A stretch of 64,000 bases of DNA from Halorhabdus rudnickae. GTDB taxonomy: Archaea > Halobacteriota > Halobacteria > Halobacteriales > Haloarculaceae. A program made the position numbers and the translations under genes. This document shows positions 5,604 through 19,520 of the stretch, piece by piece. The first letter of the stretch is position 1, and each line of letters starts with the position of its first letter. Where the stretch lies: contig NZ_CAAHFB010000001.1 of the NCBI RefSeq assembly GCF_900880625.1, positions 372,001 through 436,000 on the forward strand. The letters run 5' to 3'. The notes below the pieces were generated by a model, which saw only the letters and a program-made list of their open reading frames with translations, made no database searches and was not told the DNA's origin.

Positions 5604-6017
5604 TCACTCTACCAATCGCTGGTGTTCGACTTTCATACAGTGGTCCGCAACGACCCGATAGCCGCCATCTTCCGCCTTCTCGATCGCGTCGTCGTGGGTT
5701 ATCCCCAACTGGAGCCAGATCAGCGGATCGTCCTCGCGGTCGAGCGCCGCGTCGACGATCTCGGGAACTTCATCGCTCGGCCGGAATACGTCCACGATAT
5801 CGATTCTATCCGGGACGTCTGGGAGTGAGTCGTACGCTTCTCGGTCGAAGATGGTATCAGCAAAGGGGTTGATCGGGATCACATCGTAGCCCGCCTCCAG
5901 CAGGTACTTCGGAATATCGTGGGCGTCCTTCCCCGGCGTCGAGGAACAGCCGACGACGGCGATCGTGTTGCTAGATTCGAGGACCTCTCGCAGGGTTTCG
6001 TCGTCAGTGATCGGCAT
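5604..6017 (-). CDS. CoA-binding Rossmann-fold protein (YccU type)
   Basis: A 137-residue protein with an N-terminal Rossmann strand-loop TIAVVGCSSTPGKDAHDIPK, then IPINPFADTIFDREAYDSLP and a terminal IWLQLGITHDDA plus VVADHCMKVEH. These are the landmarks of the stand-alone CoA-binding domain also found in succinyl-CoA synthetase alpha subunits. Family members bind CoA; a physiological role is not established. The full domain is present with no extension. Confidence 0.88.
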   Translation of the reverse strand: MPITDDETLREVLESSNTIAVVGCSSTPGKDAHDIPKYLLEAGYDVIPINPFADTIFDREAYDSLPDVPDRIDIVDVFRPSDEVPEIVDAALDREDDPLIWLQLGITHDDAIEKAEDGGYRVVADHCMKVEHQRLVE

Positions 6018-11398: not shown

Positions 11399-12774
11399 CT
11401 AGAGGATCCCAATACTATAGAGGCCGAATGTGAGTACAAGAAGGGTCGATAGTAGCATCCCGGCGACCAGCGGCGGATTTTCACGTGCTTTCTCGTGCCA
11501 GGCCATCTCCTCGTACTCGTCACGGAACGTCTCCAGATTCTCTTCGTCGTAGAAGTACTTCGTCTTGAACGCGAACCGTTCCGTGACCGCACAACCCGTA
11601 CAGACAGGCGATTGTTCGAGACGTTCGGTTGTGATGTGGTCCGGACAGTTGATGCTTCCACAGTTGGAACAGTATGTGTAGTCCGTAGTCTGGCCGGTCG
11701 TCTCACAGTGGACGCACTGATGAATGCCGTCTTCGACTGTCACGCGTGACGGTCCAGCGGCGTAGTACTCGTAGGGGTACTGGTATTGTTTGATCTGTGT
11801 CGTCTGGCGAATTTCGGGCAGGTAGACCGGTGTGATCGACTGCACGGAGATATCGGATTGATTCGGCTCGCACGTCTTGTTGTAGGTGACGTTGTTGTCG
11901 CCAATGTAGGAGACGGTCGGCGTGTGACGATCCTGAAGCTGATCGACGGCCCAGTCCTTGTATTCCGTTTCGGTCTGCCCGAAGCGGTGCACGTCCATCG
12001 CATCGAAGACGTCAGCGAACTTTTCCTCGTCTAGTTCAGTCGTCTGTCGTCTGTTCTTTTCGAGAAGTCTACGAACAGATCCTTCCATAACCTCGGGCCG
12101 CCCGCGCCGAGCATGGACGACGAAGCGATCGGTCTCGTCGATGCGGTGGATTACGCCCACCGACGTTTCGAAGACGGCGTCCACGTCGGCCGTGATCAGG
12201 ACGATCGGTTGAAATCCGCTCGTGACCGAGGTGTCGGAACGTCTCTGACGGCAATGTTGTCGATGTCTTGGAAGGCCTCTCGAACGGGCGCATCGACGCC
12301 ACTGGTGGGATCGAACGGACGCAGGGTTTCGTCGCAGATGATCTCGATGCGGCCGTTGTACAGGTCGAGCCCGATCTCGTCGGCGATCTCCCGTAAATCC
12401 GTTCCGTCGATAAGCTCGATGGGATATGGATCACCGGCATCGCGCATCTCCGCGGCGTATTCACGTGCCGGTGACGTGAACGTCCCCGTGGTCACGACCA
12501 TGCCGCGCTTCGGGCCGTCGAAATCGAAGGTCGATACCGCCGAATGGAGCTTCTGTACCACTGGCCGTCCGACCGAATCAGTGTGCTTGCACTCCACGAC
12601 GATCGCGCGACGCCTCCCATCGACGACTTCCTCCATGAGGATGTCCCGCCCTTCATCGGCCGTTCGTCGAGCCTGTCGAACGTTCTCGTAACCGAGGTTG
12701 CGGAAGACGTCCTCCATTAAGTCCTCAAATTCGAAGCCGGAGAGGTCACCCAAGAGTGCCGCGTTGCTCATCAC
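11399..12774 (-). pseudogene. Mrr-type restriction endonuclease broken by a frameshift near 12212
   Basis: The first part (12774 to about 12212) has the Mrr fold: GFEFEDLMEDVFRNLGYENV, DEGRDILM, then VVECKHTDSVGRPVVQKL with the D-x(n)-ExK site, and VVTTGTFTSPAREYA. It runs out in RSRADFNRSS-stop. One base shifted, the sequence continues FQPIVLITADVDAVFETSVG and runs to 11399, with zinc-ribbon cysteines (CVHC, CSNCGSINC, CTGC) and a C-terminal membrane helix. A 1-nt indel explains the split. Intact, it would be a membrane-anchored nuclease against foreign DNA. Confidence 0.72.
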
Positions 12775-15100: not shown

Positions 15101-15751
15101 ATGCCCTTTGTTGGCCAACTCAACGGGGAGGTGGTTTTCCCTGGGTGGGTATCAGATTCGGCTGATGTCCTTTGTCCGGACTGTGGTGAAGAAATGTATG
15201 TGCGGGGTGGCCCAAATACAGATCGACTCCAGCATTTTGTGCACTATGCGAATGATCGGAAGTGTCGTGGCGAATCAGAAGAACACCTCAAATGGAAACA
15301 ACAAGTCTTCCGGGCATTTTCGAAGCTTGACCTCTCGCATCAACAGTCGCTCTTCTTTTGTTTAGAAGGAGAGGTAGATGTCTCAAATACCCCATCTGAA
15401 CGAGACATCCGTCGAGCTGATGTTCTAATCCGTCTCGGGGATGATCATGATCAGTTTGGGCGGGGGATCGTGATCGAAATCCAGCATCGAAACACCCAGA
15501 AAGATTTCCATACCGTCACCTACGATTATCTCGCTAATGGATATAGCGTTAGATGGGCCTCGCGACACGATTTCTCTACTAGCGAGTTTGATGCTGCCGA
15601 AATCATTGCTGACTCCGATTCAGATCAAATGTTCTTCCGGGAAAAAGCTGTTTCACTCCCCGAATTTGAGGCATTTCGCCAATGGGACTTTGACCAGCTT
15701 GCTGATTTACTCGATGGAACCCAACATCGTTTGTCGTGGTATCTAGAGTGA
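15101..15751 (+). CDS. CoiA-like nuclease family protein
   Basis: A 216-residue protein. The N-terminus has a CoiA-type zinc site, CPDCGEEMYVRGG, then HFVHYANDRKC and ESEEHLKWKQQ, as in competence protein CoiA. The middle carries a nuclease-like core: RADVLIRLGDD, then GIVIEIQHRN with an E-x-Q in place of E-x-K. CoiA members in bacteria act on incoming DNA; archaeal ones are common in mobile DNA. A decayed copy lies at 19155-19520, so this gene forms the left arm of a direct repeat around the QueC-like operon. Confidence 0.78.
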   Translation: MPFVGQLNGEVVFPGWVSDSADVLCPDCGEEMYVRGGPNTDRLQHFVHYANDRKCRGESEEHLKWKQQVFRAFSKLDLSHQQSLFFCLEGEVDVSNTPSERDIRRADVLIRLGDDHDQFGRGIVIEIQHRNTQKDFHTVTYDYLANGYSVRWASRHDFSTSEFDAAEIIADSDSDQMFFREKAVSLPEFEAFRQWDFDQLADLLDGTQHRLSWYLE

Positions 15752-16215: not shown

Positions 16216-16803
16216 TTAGTAAATACGTGTGAGAACTCGCTGTCGTTTCTTGCAGCTACGGCATTCACCGCACGCTGCGTTCGATGCTGTACAAGAGTGG
16301 GTCCAGCCAAGGAGTGATTCAGGCGGTCTTGCTTCCCGTACGAACTCTTCTGTTGTTTTATCGATTGCCGGGGCTGCAACTCTGAGATTCCCCTCCTGGA
16401 ACGACAGAAGAGAATCCATCAGTTCGAAGAACTCTGCCTGCCCATCAGCGTGGCTGTGGTCGTCAGCAACTGCTCCTACCAGCAATTGGTTTGCACCTCG
16501 ATGAATGACATCCATTGCGACCAATGTGATCACGAGTTGATTTCGGTAGGGCCACCACTCTGGAGTGTCACCGAGATTTGTCTCCTGTTGGCTGGCCATT
16601 GTTCCAGCCCCAAGGTGCTTGCAATCCACTTCGATGACTTCATGTTGAAGATTCAGCTGATCAGCGATTTGTGCTGATGCTTGAATCTCTGCCTCCGCAC
16701 AGCACTGTCCGTAATCAACAGTCACTGTAAGATCTGGTCTATGAGTGTACGCTAGCGTCGCAGAGTCAAGACCACCGGATAACAATAGGACGGACTCAGT
16801 CAT
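16216..16803 (-). CDS. QueC-family PP-loop enzyme (7-cyano-7-deazaguanine synthase-like)
   Basis: A 195-residue protein from ATG at 16803. The ATP pyrophosphatase loop VLLLSGGLDSATLAY is at residues 5-19 and the zinc site SCTASNAACGECRSCKKR at the C-terminus keeps all four cysteines in QueC spacing. VDYGQCCAEAEIQASAQIA and PYRNQLVITLVA also match QueC. QueC converts 7-carboxy-7-deazaguanine to preQ0 using ATP. Its operon has no other queuosine or archaeosine gene; it overlaps the kinase-transferase gene by 8 bp. I infer a specialised paralogue, perhaps conjugating a deazaguanine to a protein as reported for QatC and Cap9. Confidence 0.85.
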   Translation of the reverse strand: MTESVLLLSGGLDSATLAYTHRPDLTVTVDYGQCCAEAEIQASAQIADQLNLQHEVIEVDCKHLGAGTMASQQETNLGDTPEWWPYRNQLVITLVAMDVIHRGANQLLVGAVADDHSHADGQAEFFELMDSLLSFQEGNLRVAAPAIDKTTEEFVREARPPESLLGWTHSCTASNAACGECRSCKKRQRVLTRIY

Positions 16804-18016
16804 ACGCCCTCCAGATTGCATTGAAGATGGCTGAAGATAGATCGCCGTATACCTCACAACCAGAGCCGAGAATCATGGTTTCACGACTTGTTTCGAGATT
16901 ATCTGCGTACCCGATAACTGGTGTTCCCTCCTTCCGGGCATATCCCAATTCAAAGTGGGTTCCGGAGTCGAGATGATCCAGTAATGCAAATACCAAGTCT
17001 GATTGCTCAATTGCATCTAAGTCTTGTTGTGCTACCTCTTCCGGACTGTCGTAGTCAGCGGCTCGACCGATATCGTGTATAGGGGAAATCACGTCAGCAC
17101 TCTCCCCCTCTAAGATATTTTTGACTTCTTCAACAACGAATCGTTCGCCTATGTCGAAGAATGGACCTGCAAGATAGATTGTCGGAGGGGTAGCGTCCGG
17201 TGAGATGAATGTCGATGAAGTACTGTTGGGCAATGATTGGATGTGTTCTCTGGAAATCGGCAGACGGCGATGTCTACAGTAGTATGCTGTTGCCTTCGAA
17301 GCGGTTAGAGCAGCGTCTACAGCAGTTTCACCATTTTCTGCCCACTCCGCAGCAAAGATAGCACTGAAGACGTCCCCACTTCCAATCCCCCAAACCGACT
17401 CCGTCTGAAAAACTGGGATTCGGGACGTCATATTTGAAGTTCTGATGATTGCCCCTTTCGCTCCCCGTTTGAGAACGACAACGTCTGCGTCAGTAGTGCC
17501 TGCCATAAGTTCTGTCAAAATAGATTCTAAGCGGTCTTCACCAGCCAACTGCGCAGCTTCGTTACGGTTCAAAACGAGTGCGAGTTCGTCGGCAGTTGAA
17601 CCATTCTCACCGAACGGAACCGGGTTTGCTGATTGGGGATCATAGACGACGCGCTCACCAGAAACAATTGCTGTCCCTTCAAGGAGCCCGAATCGCAGAA
17701 TTGCGTCTCCGCTAATTCCTGACAGTTTGCGGTTATAGTTGGTAGCTCCTGATGTGGAAATTACGGGGTTTGAGTGATTATGCAGATAGTCGAAACTAAC
17801 CGTCACCGGGATCTCAGTTATGTGGGTATCGAAGTTAAACGTCGCCGCGAATGTTTCAAGGGTCTCTTTATCAGCAGAGCTGATACATGTATGGAGTTGG
17901 TTTCGAGAAGAGATGAGACTTTCAGTAGCTGCGGCCGCTCGTAGACCTGAGCCGAAGAATGCAGTGTCAGGAGGAAACTGGCACACCTCATGGTAAGTGC
18001 CGCCCGCGATAATCAT
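16796..18016 (-). CDS. PfkB-family kinase fused to nucleoside 2-deoxyribosyltransferase
   Basis: A 406-residue fusion. Residues 1-270 are ribokinase/PfkB-like: FFGSGLRAAAA at 21-31, the NRNEAAQLAG motif near 150, VVVLKRGAKGAII and the anion-hole/catalytic VWGIGSGDVFSAIFA near 210. Residues 278-406 are a nucleoside 2-deoxyribosyltransferase: PTIYLAGPFFDIGERF, DLDAIEQSDLVFALLD, and SGTHFELGYARKEGTPV holding the catalytic Glu. The first half would phosphorylate a sugar or nucleoside; the second exchanges or hydrolyses bases on deoxynucleosides or nucleotides. It overlaps the neighbours by 4 and 8 bp, so all three genes make one unit. Confidence 0.85.
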   Translation of the reverse strand: MIIAGGTYHEVCQFPPDTAFFGSGLRAAAATESLISSRNQLHTCISSADKETLETFAATFNFDTHITEIPVTVSFDYLHNHSNPVISTSGATNYNRKLSGISGDAILRFGLLEGTAIVSGERVVYDPQSANPVPFGENGSTADELALVLNRNEAAQLAGEDRLESILTELMAGTTDADVVVLKRGAKGAIIRTSNMTSRIPVFQTESVWGIGSGDVFSAIFAAEWAENGETAVDAALTASKATAYYCRHRRLPISREHIQSLPNSTSSTFISPDATPPTIYLAGPFFDIGERFVVEEVKNILEGESADVISPIHDIGRAADYDSPEEVAQQDLDAIEQSDLVFALLDHLDSGTHFELGYARKEGTPVIGYADNLETSRETMILGSGCEVYGDLSSAIFNAIWRAYD

Positions 18017-19086
18017 TCGTCACCTGGGACGCTTTGAATATTGACTGTGCAAGACTCTGGTGTAATGCTACGAACCTCTGCCTGATATGAACGTCCTTTC
18101 TCAATACACTCGTTGAGAAGCTGAGCCCATGGGTTAGGAACATCACCAACTCTAGATCCGTCATTCATGACAACGACCCCCTCTTCGGTCGTCGTTTCAA
18201 CTGACAGGGAAAGCCCAGGGTGAAGTTGGTCCCGTACTGCAGCATTGATAGCAATCAGATCGAGATCACGGTAGAGCAGACACCTATTGGTCACTCTGAC
18301 TTCGCATTTCCCACCATCGATTTCAAGAATCCGAGCCCGATATTGTCGGCCCTGCTCGATACACTCTTTCAATGTTCCAACCCACGGTTCAGCTATAGCG
18401 CCGATGGTCCTGTCTTGTGAATCTACAACGCAGACTGCTTCGTCTTGAAGCCGTACTGAATAGATATCTCCCTCAGTTGCATCTCCCAACGGTTCTATAT
18501 TTGGCGAATGGAGAAGAGCAGTTTCTGCAATCAGGCACTCGTCTTCGTCATCCTCATCCTCATCCTCATCGTCTTCATCATTATCTTCAGCGTCTTCCTC
18601 ATCTTTCTCGTGTTCCCGGTCTTCTTCAGACTCCCCATCACGATTTTGCTGATCACCTTCTTGTTCCTCTCTTTCCGAGTCCTCATCAACAGATTCGTCT
18701 TCGGGAACGGACTCTGTCGGATCTTGTCCATCTGAGCTGTCGTCATTTTGTCCGTTATCATCCTCTGAGTCTTCGGGCTCCTTTTTTTCAGAGTCTGAAT
18801 CATCATCTCCCGGCGTATCTTCAGGTCTTTCTCCAGGTCCGGTTACTGGTGCACCACCACCATCCCCACCACCGCCTCCACCGCCTCCGCCACCCACTGG
18901 CAGTGGGCCTCCTGGAGTCGCTTCGTCGCTTGTCCCCTGTGACTCATCAGGCGGATCTTCGGTAGTTTCGTCCTCTGACTCGGGGGGCGGAACGCGACTC
19001 GGCCCGTCTTCACTAGAATCACCAGAGCTCCCTCCAGATCCGTCGTTATCAGACGGACGATCGTATCCGCCGCCTCCTCCGCCCAT
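18013..19086 (-). CDS. Glycine-rich acidic protein with two HIRAN-like repeats
   Basis: A 357-residue protein. It starts Met followed by six glycines, then YDRPSDNDGSGG. Residues 1-185 are disordered: a second run of ten glycines, many Asp/Glu/Ser, and a nearly pure acidic stretch at about 160-185. Two similar C-terminal repeats follow, at about 209-293 and 294-357, each with a V-x-D-x-[RT]-x-[VI]-G turn and a C-I-E-[QK]-G-R-x-Y-x-A helix-strand (LKECIEQGRQYRA; LNECIEKGRSYQA), reminiscent of HIRAN domains. First gene of the QueC-like operon. I infer that the glycine N-terminus is an acceptor for modification. Confidence 0.75.
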   Translation of the reverse strand: MGGGGGGYDRPSDNDGSGGSSGDSSEDGPSRVPPPESEDETTEDPPDESQGTSDEATPGGPLPVGGGGGGGGGGDGGGAPVTGPGERPEDTPGDDDSDSEKKEPEDSEDDNGQNDDSSDGQDPTESVPEDESVDEDSEREEQEGDQQNRDGESEEDREHEKDEEDAEDNDEDDEDEDEDDEDECLIAETALLHSPNIEPLGDATEGDIYSVRLQDEAVCVVDSQDRTIGAIAEPWVGTLKECIEQGRQYRARILEIDGGKCEVRVTNRCLLYRDLDLIAINAAVRDQLHPGLSLSVETTTEEGVVVMNDGSRVGDVPNPWAQLLNECIEKGRSYQAEVRSITPESCTVNIQSVPGDE

Positions 19087-19154: not shown

Positions 19155-19520
19155 ACATCATTTCTCCGTCTGAACAAGATATCCGTCAAGCGGATGTTCT
19201 AATCCGTTTCGGTGATAGTCATGCAGTTTAGACAGGAACCTCGATCGACATCCAGCATCAAAATACCAGAAAGATTTCCATACCGTCACCTACGATTATC
19301 TCACCAATGGATATGGCGTTAGATGGGCTTCGCGACATGATTTCTCTACTGCTGAGTTTGATGCTGCCAAAGTCATTGCTAACTCCGATTCAGACCAGAT
19401 GTTCTTCCGAGAAGAAGCCGTTACGCTCCCCGAATTTGAGAAATTTTGCCAGTGAGACTTTGACCAGTTCGCTGATTTACTCGACGGAACTCAGTATCGC
19501 TTGTCGCGGTACCTAGAGTG
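19155..19520 (+). pseudogene. Decayed partial duplicate of the CoiA-like gene
   Basis: This aligns with 15385-15751 at roughly 80-85 percent, including the flank after the stop codon to about 19565. The N-terminal zinc region is missing. The frame is interrupted by TAG after agtcatgcagt and TGA in gccagtgagac. Together with the intact gene it forms a direct repeat about 3.8 kb apart, enclosing the zinc-ribbon gene and the QueC-like operon. Confidence 0.82.

Follow-up and report, generated by a model that had tools for sequence, protein, structure and literature searches.

We consider it probable that an archaeal protein with six glycines behind its initiator methionine is the substrate (or the carrier) for N-terminal nucleobase conjugation in a new, likely defensive system centred on a QueC-like enzyme. 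The protein is encoded in a 64,000-nucleotide stretch of the Halorhabdus rudnickae genome (contig NZ_CAAHFB010000001.1, positions 372,001 to 436,000; hereafter the window) by a gene that heads a mobile three-gene cassette, whose products are, in this order, a HIRAN-like protein, a PfkB-family kinase fused to a nucleoside 2-deoxyribosyltransferase (NDT), and a QueC-like ligase. The original prediction for this DNA overlooked that the neighbours of the protein define a separate, widespread cassette. Its parts, all on the minus strand, are as follows.

18013..19086 (-): HIRAN-like protein, putative N-terminal modification substrate, 357 aa (open reading frame with ATG, and relatives)
19066..19086 (-): N-terminal MGGGGGG, residues 1-7, putative acceptor end once Met is removed (translation, conservation in relatives)
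18541..19065 (-): linker, residues 8-182, predicted disordered (composition)
18865-18894 (-): Gly10 run, residues 65-74, inside the linker (composition)
about 18538-18831 (-): acidic stretch, residues 86-183 (composition)
18277..18540 (-): HIRAN-like repeat 1, residues 183-270 (AlphaFold, Foldseek and VIA-align to HLTF/Rad5 HIRAN)
18016..18285 (-): HIRAN-like repeat 2, residues 268-357 (AlphaFold and VIA-align to HLTF HIRAN)
16796..18016 (-): PfkB-family kinase fused to NDT, 406 aa (PF00294 6.9e-10, PF05014 1.2e-16)
16216..16803 (-): QueC-like ligase, published Cluster 4 (PF06508 1e-25; open reading frame listed from a GTG at 16857)

The cassette and the start of its first protein

The window protein begins MGGGGGGYDRPSD. 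Residues 2-7 and 65-74 are all glycine, and an acidic stretch follows in which 57 of the 98 residues are Asp or Glu and 7 are Lys or Arg; its composition suggests that the linker is disordered. Since the open frame of 365 aa reaches only about 8 codons 5′ of the ATG, this start is not in doubt. By eye, a TATA-like AATTAATATAAA can be seen some 20-30 bases before it, which suits the leaderless type of haloarchaeal gene. The combination of a six-glycine start, a ten-glycine run, an acidic tract and two C-terminal repeats (29% identical to each other) in one protein, as first described, was confirmed on the open reading frame at 18013-19086. The PfkB-NDT gene overlaps the 3′ end of the HIRAN-like gene, and the QueC-like gene, whose start we set at 16803 as in relatives, lies close behind it.

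PfkB-NDT matches were found in 40 plasmid records, 311 stretches of genome contigs and 96 of viral contigs, with closely related cassettes in Halorubrum lacusprofundi (pHLAC01) and Halobium salinum; named phages gave a single match, to part of NDT. We studied 84 loci, namely the best 80 of the 311 genome-contig stretches (L024-L103) and the only four full-length loci (L104-L107) among the best 80 of the 96 viral matches. All 84 keep the kinase motif G-x-G-D and the NDT motif D-x-GT-x-x-E-x-G, and all 84 have an open reading frame matched by a HIRAN-like domain profile, which was made from the C-terminal domain of the window protein together with 65 of the same 84 loci. In 79/84 the gene after PfkB-NDT is a QueC of this group, the remaining five being one contig end (L077) and four Bacteroidota loci. 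HIRAN-like repeats are single in the bacterial loci read and double in haloarchaea, and six loci have a second HIRAN-like copy after QueC. Within the class, PfkB-NDT was detected at 1e-20 in 6/292 genomes; in one of these, a relative (G205), only a 61-residue remnant is left (L014, 85% identical), which we read as a cassette decaying in place.

QueC proteins with a PF00294-PF05014 neighbour, as the window QueC has, were published as "Cluster 4"; in the passages available to us, that neighbour adjoins about 89% of the cluster, purine salvage is suggested, and no partner protein is named (PMC13329287). The same passages describe a YGQ motif and a C-terminal Cys motif as in the cassette, and mention no HIRAN-like substrate, SagB or PurA replacement. 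Under salvage, PfkB-NDT and QueC would recycle nucleosides and the glycine-start protein would be a regulator or unrelated, a reading with which the intact catalytic motifs of both kinase and NDT agree. However, we regard it as improbable, given that a HIRAN-like protein with a fixed N-terminus, first in the operon, is present in 84/84 loci, that the distribution is patchy and often plasmid-borne, unlike that of such a pathway, and that genes for TIR, OGG, Dam and dGTPase proteins are among the neighbours. Plasmids, patchiness and these neighbours are also the reason why the cassette is likely defensive.

Because its haloarchaeal relatives begin alike (MGGGGGGYNRPS, MGGGSGGYERPS, MGGGSGGYHRPS, MGGGGSSRRSGS and, once, MCGGGSRNWNNG) and the start is conserved across phyla, the glycine start of the window protein is more than chance. 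When starts were assigned blind (Shine-Dalgarno plus ATG, ignoring the protein sequence), Gly occupied position 2 or 3 in 74/83 HIRAN-like proteins, compared with 7/83 for PfkB-NDT and 16/78 for QueC. Position 2 was Ser in 65/83 and Gly in 8/83, position 3 was Gly in 71/83, and Gly dropped to 9-14 of about 80 at positions 13-17. Bacterial starts are mostly MSGSG or MSGGG, with MGGG, MAGG, MTGS and MCGG also seen. In a set of 65 of which no two are more than 75% alike in the domain, Gly is at position 2 or 3 in 58, and 62 carry at position 2 a small residue of the kind required for Met removal. Several of the nine misses under the blind rule proved on inspection to be start-choice errors (L024, L074, L102), with L096 unexplained. 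One further locus, L039, gave no start and was left out of the count; it has a frameshift near 5640 in the glycine codons just behind its MSGSGG start, which may be an assembly error or G-run phase variation. Over these relatives, the start is kept as Met-small-Gly and the linker is variable. The expectation of an invariant Met-Gly start before a varying linker was thus borne out for conservation next to a QueC-like enzyme and for the linker, though not for literal invariance, given the prevalence of Ser at position 2.

Fold of the C-terminal repeats

Modelled by AlphaFold as single domains, both repeats are beta-rich (mean pLDDT 94.2 and pTM 0.83 for repeat 1; 89.7 and 0.79 for repeat 2). Foldseek placed lp_0118 (3k2y, E 5.5e-4) at the top and the HIRAN domain of HLTF next (4xzg, E 5.7e-3, probability 1.00), followed by Rad5 and, more weakly, HamB of Hachiman. 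With VIA-align, lp_0118 was again the best match of all (Z 12.2 for either repeat); repeat 1 then matched HLTF (Z 8.9, root-mean-square deviation 2.9, 86 aligned), Rad5 (8.5), HamB (7.5) and SmpB (6.0), and repeat 2 matched HLTF (9.9), Rad5 (9.2) and SmpB (5.4). For each repeat, HLTF and Rad5 HIRAN is the best-matching named family by structure, and we take the models to mean that the repeats have a HIRAN-like fold. The suggestion that they are HIRAN domains therefore survives at the level of fold (HLTF/Rad5, Z 8.5-9.9) and fails in sequence searches, the repeats being only 8-14% identical to these domains: Pfam HIRAN matched neither the window protein nor repeat 1. Among 67 domain sequences run against Pfam, HIRAN was absent from the 25 families listed of 36, none of which matched more than two members. 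The domain profile found no PDB sequence below E 0.2, and Pfam, NCBIfam and PADLOC gave nothing firm for the HIRAN-like protein. The PADLOC model PDC-M03B matched the window protein at 3e-5 and was not used; two relatives had no PADLOC match at all.

The QueC-like enzyme, its replacements and its neighbours

Against TIGR00364, the window QueC scores 76.5 bits, under the cut-off of 150.3, and it is not a canonical QueC: the YPDC substrate motif is absent, with H-x-D-G instead. Residues were compared in E. coli numbering with the canonical QueC of E. coli, L195 and L196 (L197 and L198 were left out). R99, N100 and D133 are present in 86/86 members of the group, Y35, Q37 and E42 in 85/86, while Y131 is replaced by His in 81/86 and C134 by Gly in 85/86. 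Hence the base-recognising Asp and the residues essential in E. coli QueC (Y35, R99) are kept, and the stacking Tyr is lost. A GSG[DEN] motif found in 70/86 also occurs in Cap9 (GSGELVG) and is absent from E. coli and B. subtilis QueC; a profile of the group matches Cap9 (9nto) at 1.2e-19 and QueC at 2.5e-23. Cap9 is the enzyme of type IV CBASS that joins 7-carboxy-7-deazaguanine (CDG) to the N-terminal Gly of a CD-NTase, its Tyr115 and Asp117 holding the base; the passages available to us give QatC Thr/Thr at these positions and leave the QatC reaction unresolved (PMC13279940). The catalytic and base-recognising residues that define a QueC-like Cap9 in type IV CBASS are present in the cassette QueC, which keeps R99, N100 and D133.

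The window protein had also been likened to QatB, and a diverged qatABCD system would account for a Met-Gly start and a disordered tail beside a QueC-family enzyme; there too the partner has a disordered N-terminal tail with a small-residue or Gly start. But QatB is described as a ten-helix protein (PMC13279940, in part), whereas the repeats are beta-rich with a HIRAN-like fold, and neither the KAP ATPase qatA nor the TatD nuclease qatD was found in the three-gene cassette when neighbours were searched with Pfam and PADLOC. The cassette QueC is about 200 aa long, lacks the QatC extensions, and keeps the Asp that QatC replaces by Thr according to the same source. We accordingly rejected QatB homology on fold and operon content, and a Qat origin of the cassette is very improbable. 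On a second contig of the window's genome (L193, 4835-8717), a further QueC-family gene (489 aa, PF06508 1.1e-6) lies behind a gene for a 153-aa protein starting MGTATRN and, by eye, before a CD-NTase-like gene and a membrane protein, and is perhaps another Met-Gly/QueC defence operon.

Both the partner protein and the ligase are exchanged among relatives. In three loci on plasmids of Rhizobium, Agrobacterium and Neorhizobium (L022, L023, L296), the gene after QueC encodes a TIR protein that begins MGGGSSGSW, MGGGGGGDGNW or MGGGGGGNWN. These loci hold OGG (PF22175 at 9.7e-25 in L022), PfkB and a TIR-TGT fusion, and NDT is not detectable on the PfkB of L022. The L022 fusion matches the PADLOC type IV CBASS TGT at 1.8e-22 (Pfam TGT 0.0014, under cut-off), and its TGT part also matches (E 9e-9) the gene that separates QueC from CD-NTase in a type IV CBASS of Pseudanabaena; the CD-NTase there begins MGGSGGGFFSNSD (MGGSGGG). 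From these loci, TGT is present where NDT is missing, and one start is found on HIRAN-like, TIR and CD-NTase proteins.

This recurrence bears on another explanation, in which the Gly/Ser-rich front is an unmodified flexible tether or assembly tag of a DNA-end-binding defence protein, while a small signal molecule is produced or broken down by QueC and PfkB-NDT. Its attractions are the HIRAN-like fold, a linker whose composition suggests disorder, and SagB, OGG and Dam neighbours, for which nucleic acid or small molecules are possible substrates. A mere tether, however, should not keep positions 2-6 fixed while the following residues drift, nor should its start reappear where QueC-like enzymes have a TIR or CD-NTase partner, and we think this explanation unlikely.

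As for the ligase, all four QueC-less loci with downstream sequence (two from Hymenobacter, one each from Dyadobacter and Draconibacterium) have a PurA-like protein in its place after PfkB-NDT (PF00709, 1.8e-40 to 8.9e-45). Each of these genomes has a separate copy of ordinary PurA length, 28-30% identical to the PurA-like ligase. The ligase keeps the catalytic Asp, Lys and His and is missing the TTGR loop, which in PurA binds aspartate. HIRAN-like starts in these loci are MSKRNP, MSKRKD and MGGGGSYS, the fourth being unclear (MYQSYSTFMKGGGG or MKGGGG), and an equation of QueC loss with loss of the glycine start was rejected, only two of the four lacking it. Since either class of enzyme, QueC or PurA-like, attaches an amine to a purine-type ring that has been activated, we infer that conjugation fits better than salvage. 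Relatives of the PurA-like protein in viral contigs (L216-L295, the best 80 of 170) are up to 49% identical to the QueC-replacing ligase, and 20/20 sampled also lack the TTGR loop. Loop loss is thus weakened as a special mark of the cassette ligase, and by sequence the viral proteins may use an amine partner other than aspartate. In three of the four PurA-type loci a conserved protein of 84-85 aa precedes the HIRAN-like gene (L034 5368-5622, L049 5358-5615, L065 5340-5597).

Over the 84 loci, neighbours include an OGG-type glycosylase in 73, a SagB-type dehydrogenase in 62 and Dam in 32, as well as TIR and dGTPase genes. For the dehydrogenase, the TIGR03605 model (SagB family peptide dehydrogenase) gives 1.6e-14, under its cut-off; members of the SagB family oxidise azoline rings in peptides. 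Its presence goes with the nature of residue 2 in the 85 QueC loci with enough downstream sequence, a count excluding nine rows: two contig ends (L025, L077), four PurA-type loci (L034, L049, L065, L085), one unclear start (L096) and two duplicates (L012, L015). Residue 2 is Ser or Thr in 64/64 loci with SagB, whereas at least one HIRAN-like copy has Gly, Ala or Cys there in 17 of the 21 without it (Fisher 1.9e-14); with blind starts only, Ser or Thr was found in 62/63 and 4/17, respectively (p 1.0e-10). The clearest sister pair is L045 (SagB, MSGM) and L081 (no SagB, MGGC). In six extra Bacteroidota loci, the three with SagB all have Ser, and of the three without, two have Ser and one has Gly, the last looking like the Balneola locus L058 again. 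Overall, SagB implies Ser or Thr at residue 2 (67/67), and the converse fails (of 23 without SagB, 17 have Gly, Ala or Cys and 6 have Ser).

In the window, an intact CoiA-like open reading frame (15101-15751, +) and a second copy broken by a frameshift and stops (19163-19518, +; its last 84 residues 83% identical) flank the cassette, which suggests insertion with or into a duplicated CoiA-like neighbour. An Mrr-type restriction endonuclease (12196-12774, -, PF04471 9.8e-27) lies a few kb off and fits a defence neighbourhood.

A proposed conjugation system

In the scheme that we favour, modelled on Cap9 acting on the CD-NTase of type IV CBASS, Met would be removed and the QueC-like enzyme encoded nearby would take the flexible Gly/Ser-rich N-terminus into its active site. 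There, using ATP, it would link the N-terminal amine to the carboxyl of a guanine-like base, CDG or one of its relatives. PfkB-NDT, filling the place of the TGT-family Cap10, would next act on or read the attached base and, by its domains, could add (deoxy)ribose and phosphorylate. In most bacterial loci the conjugate may be processed further by the SagB-type dehydrogenase, and a gene in the vicinity specifies an OGG-type DNA glycosylase. HLTF HIRAN binds 3′ DNA ends; the C-terminal HIRAN-like domain or domains would bring the tagged tail to DNA, probably free 3′ ends or damaged invader DNA. What the analysis shows directly is the cassette, its conserved start, HIRAN-like fold and catalytic residues, and the exchange of substrate and ligase among loci; conjugation, the base, the sequence of steps, DNA binding and defence are inferred.

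The likeness to type IV CBASS, in which the N-terminal base is a 7-deazaguanine (NDG), is close in several respects. Cap9 and the cassette QueC are both about 200 aa, with SGGxDS, Y/F-x-Q, RN, the base-recognising Asp and zinc Cys; the partner protein in each has a Met-Gly-Gly/Ser start; and each system has a base-exchange enzyme, TGT in CBASS and NDT in the cassette. In contrast to CBASS, no CD-NTase was found in the operon, either in the window cassette or in the neighbourhoods of its relatives; the substrate would be HIRAN-like, NDT is fused to a PfkB kinase, a SagB-type dehydrogenase is present in most loci, Tyr131 has become His, and residue 2 is mostly Ser.

Several points weigh against conjugation as proposed here. 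Modification of the HIRAN-like protein is a prediction from sequence, and residue 2 is mostly Ser, whereas Gly stands there in the partners of Cap9 and QatC. The starts of two of the four PurA-type loci are MSKR, with no glycine, and six loci without SagB also have Ser at residue 2. On the PfkB-NDT tree there are only four supported independent contrasts (two in the same direction, none opposite, two with no difference), so the link between SagB and residue 2 is not significant after correction for relatedness. Most of the group has His in place of Tyr131, the counterpart of the base-stacking Tyr of Cap9, so the base may differ from that of Cap9. Moreover, no canonical QueC was found in the window's own genome, nor a convincing QueE (best 31.8 bits to haloarchaeal QueE; TIGR03365 24.4 bits), so its host may not make CDG, though the genome does have a QueD-like PTPS and two TGT matches. 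Canonical QueC is also lacking in 5/6 other genomes of the genus tested, the sixth (G001) having a 119.6-bit match; Haloferax volcanii, the control, has QueC. Of nine further whole genomes examined that carry the cassette, eight have canonical QueC above the cut-off. On these findings, a CDG donor is plausible in most hosts and doubtful in that of the window, and we put a deazaguanine as the conjugated base at slightly under an even chance.

A more elaborate version, which we offer as speculative and rather unlikely, would build a protein-linked nucleotide on the QueC-attached base. With Ser or Thr at residue 2, the ATP-dependent amide activation by QueC, which normally leads to a nitrile, would close the side chain into an oxazoline; the SagB-type dehydrogenase would oxidise this to an oxazole, NDT would add deoxyribose and PfkB would phosphorylate it. 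Docked on 3′ DNA ends by its HIRAN-like domain, the tagged protein would be a chain-blocking or DNA-marking warhead, with the OGG-type glycosylase as its eraser or trigger, and in some Bacteroidota the PurA-like ligase would perform the first step at purine C6.

To our knowledge, type IV CBASS is the one system known to conjugate a nucleobase to a protein N-terminus, and Qat is suspected of doing so as well. We found no paper that treats HIRAN together with QueC in the open-access PMC literature (preprint servers being outside this scope), and as far as that literature goes the system proposed here is not in print. If our proposal is true, the cassette would be a third and widely spread system of this kind, in archaea and bacteria, in which a fixed acceptor end is carried by interchangeable proteins (HIRAN-like or TIR), served by interchangeable ligases (QueC or PurA-like) and joined by a peptide-type dehydrogenase. 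The generality of QueC-driven protein tagging would become a simple mass-spectrometry question, and a published "purine salvage" cluster would more likely serve immunity, as a family of microbial defence systems not recognised before and with its own chemistry.

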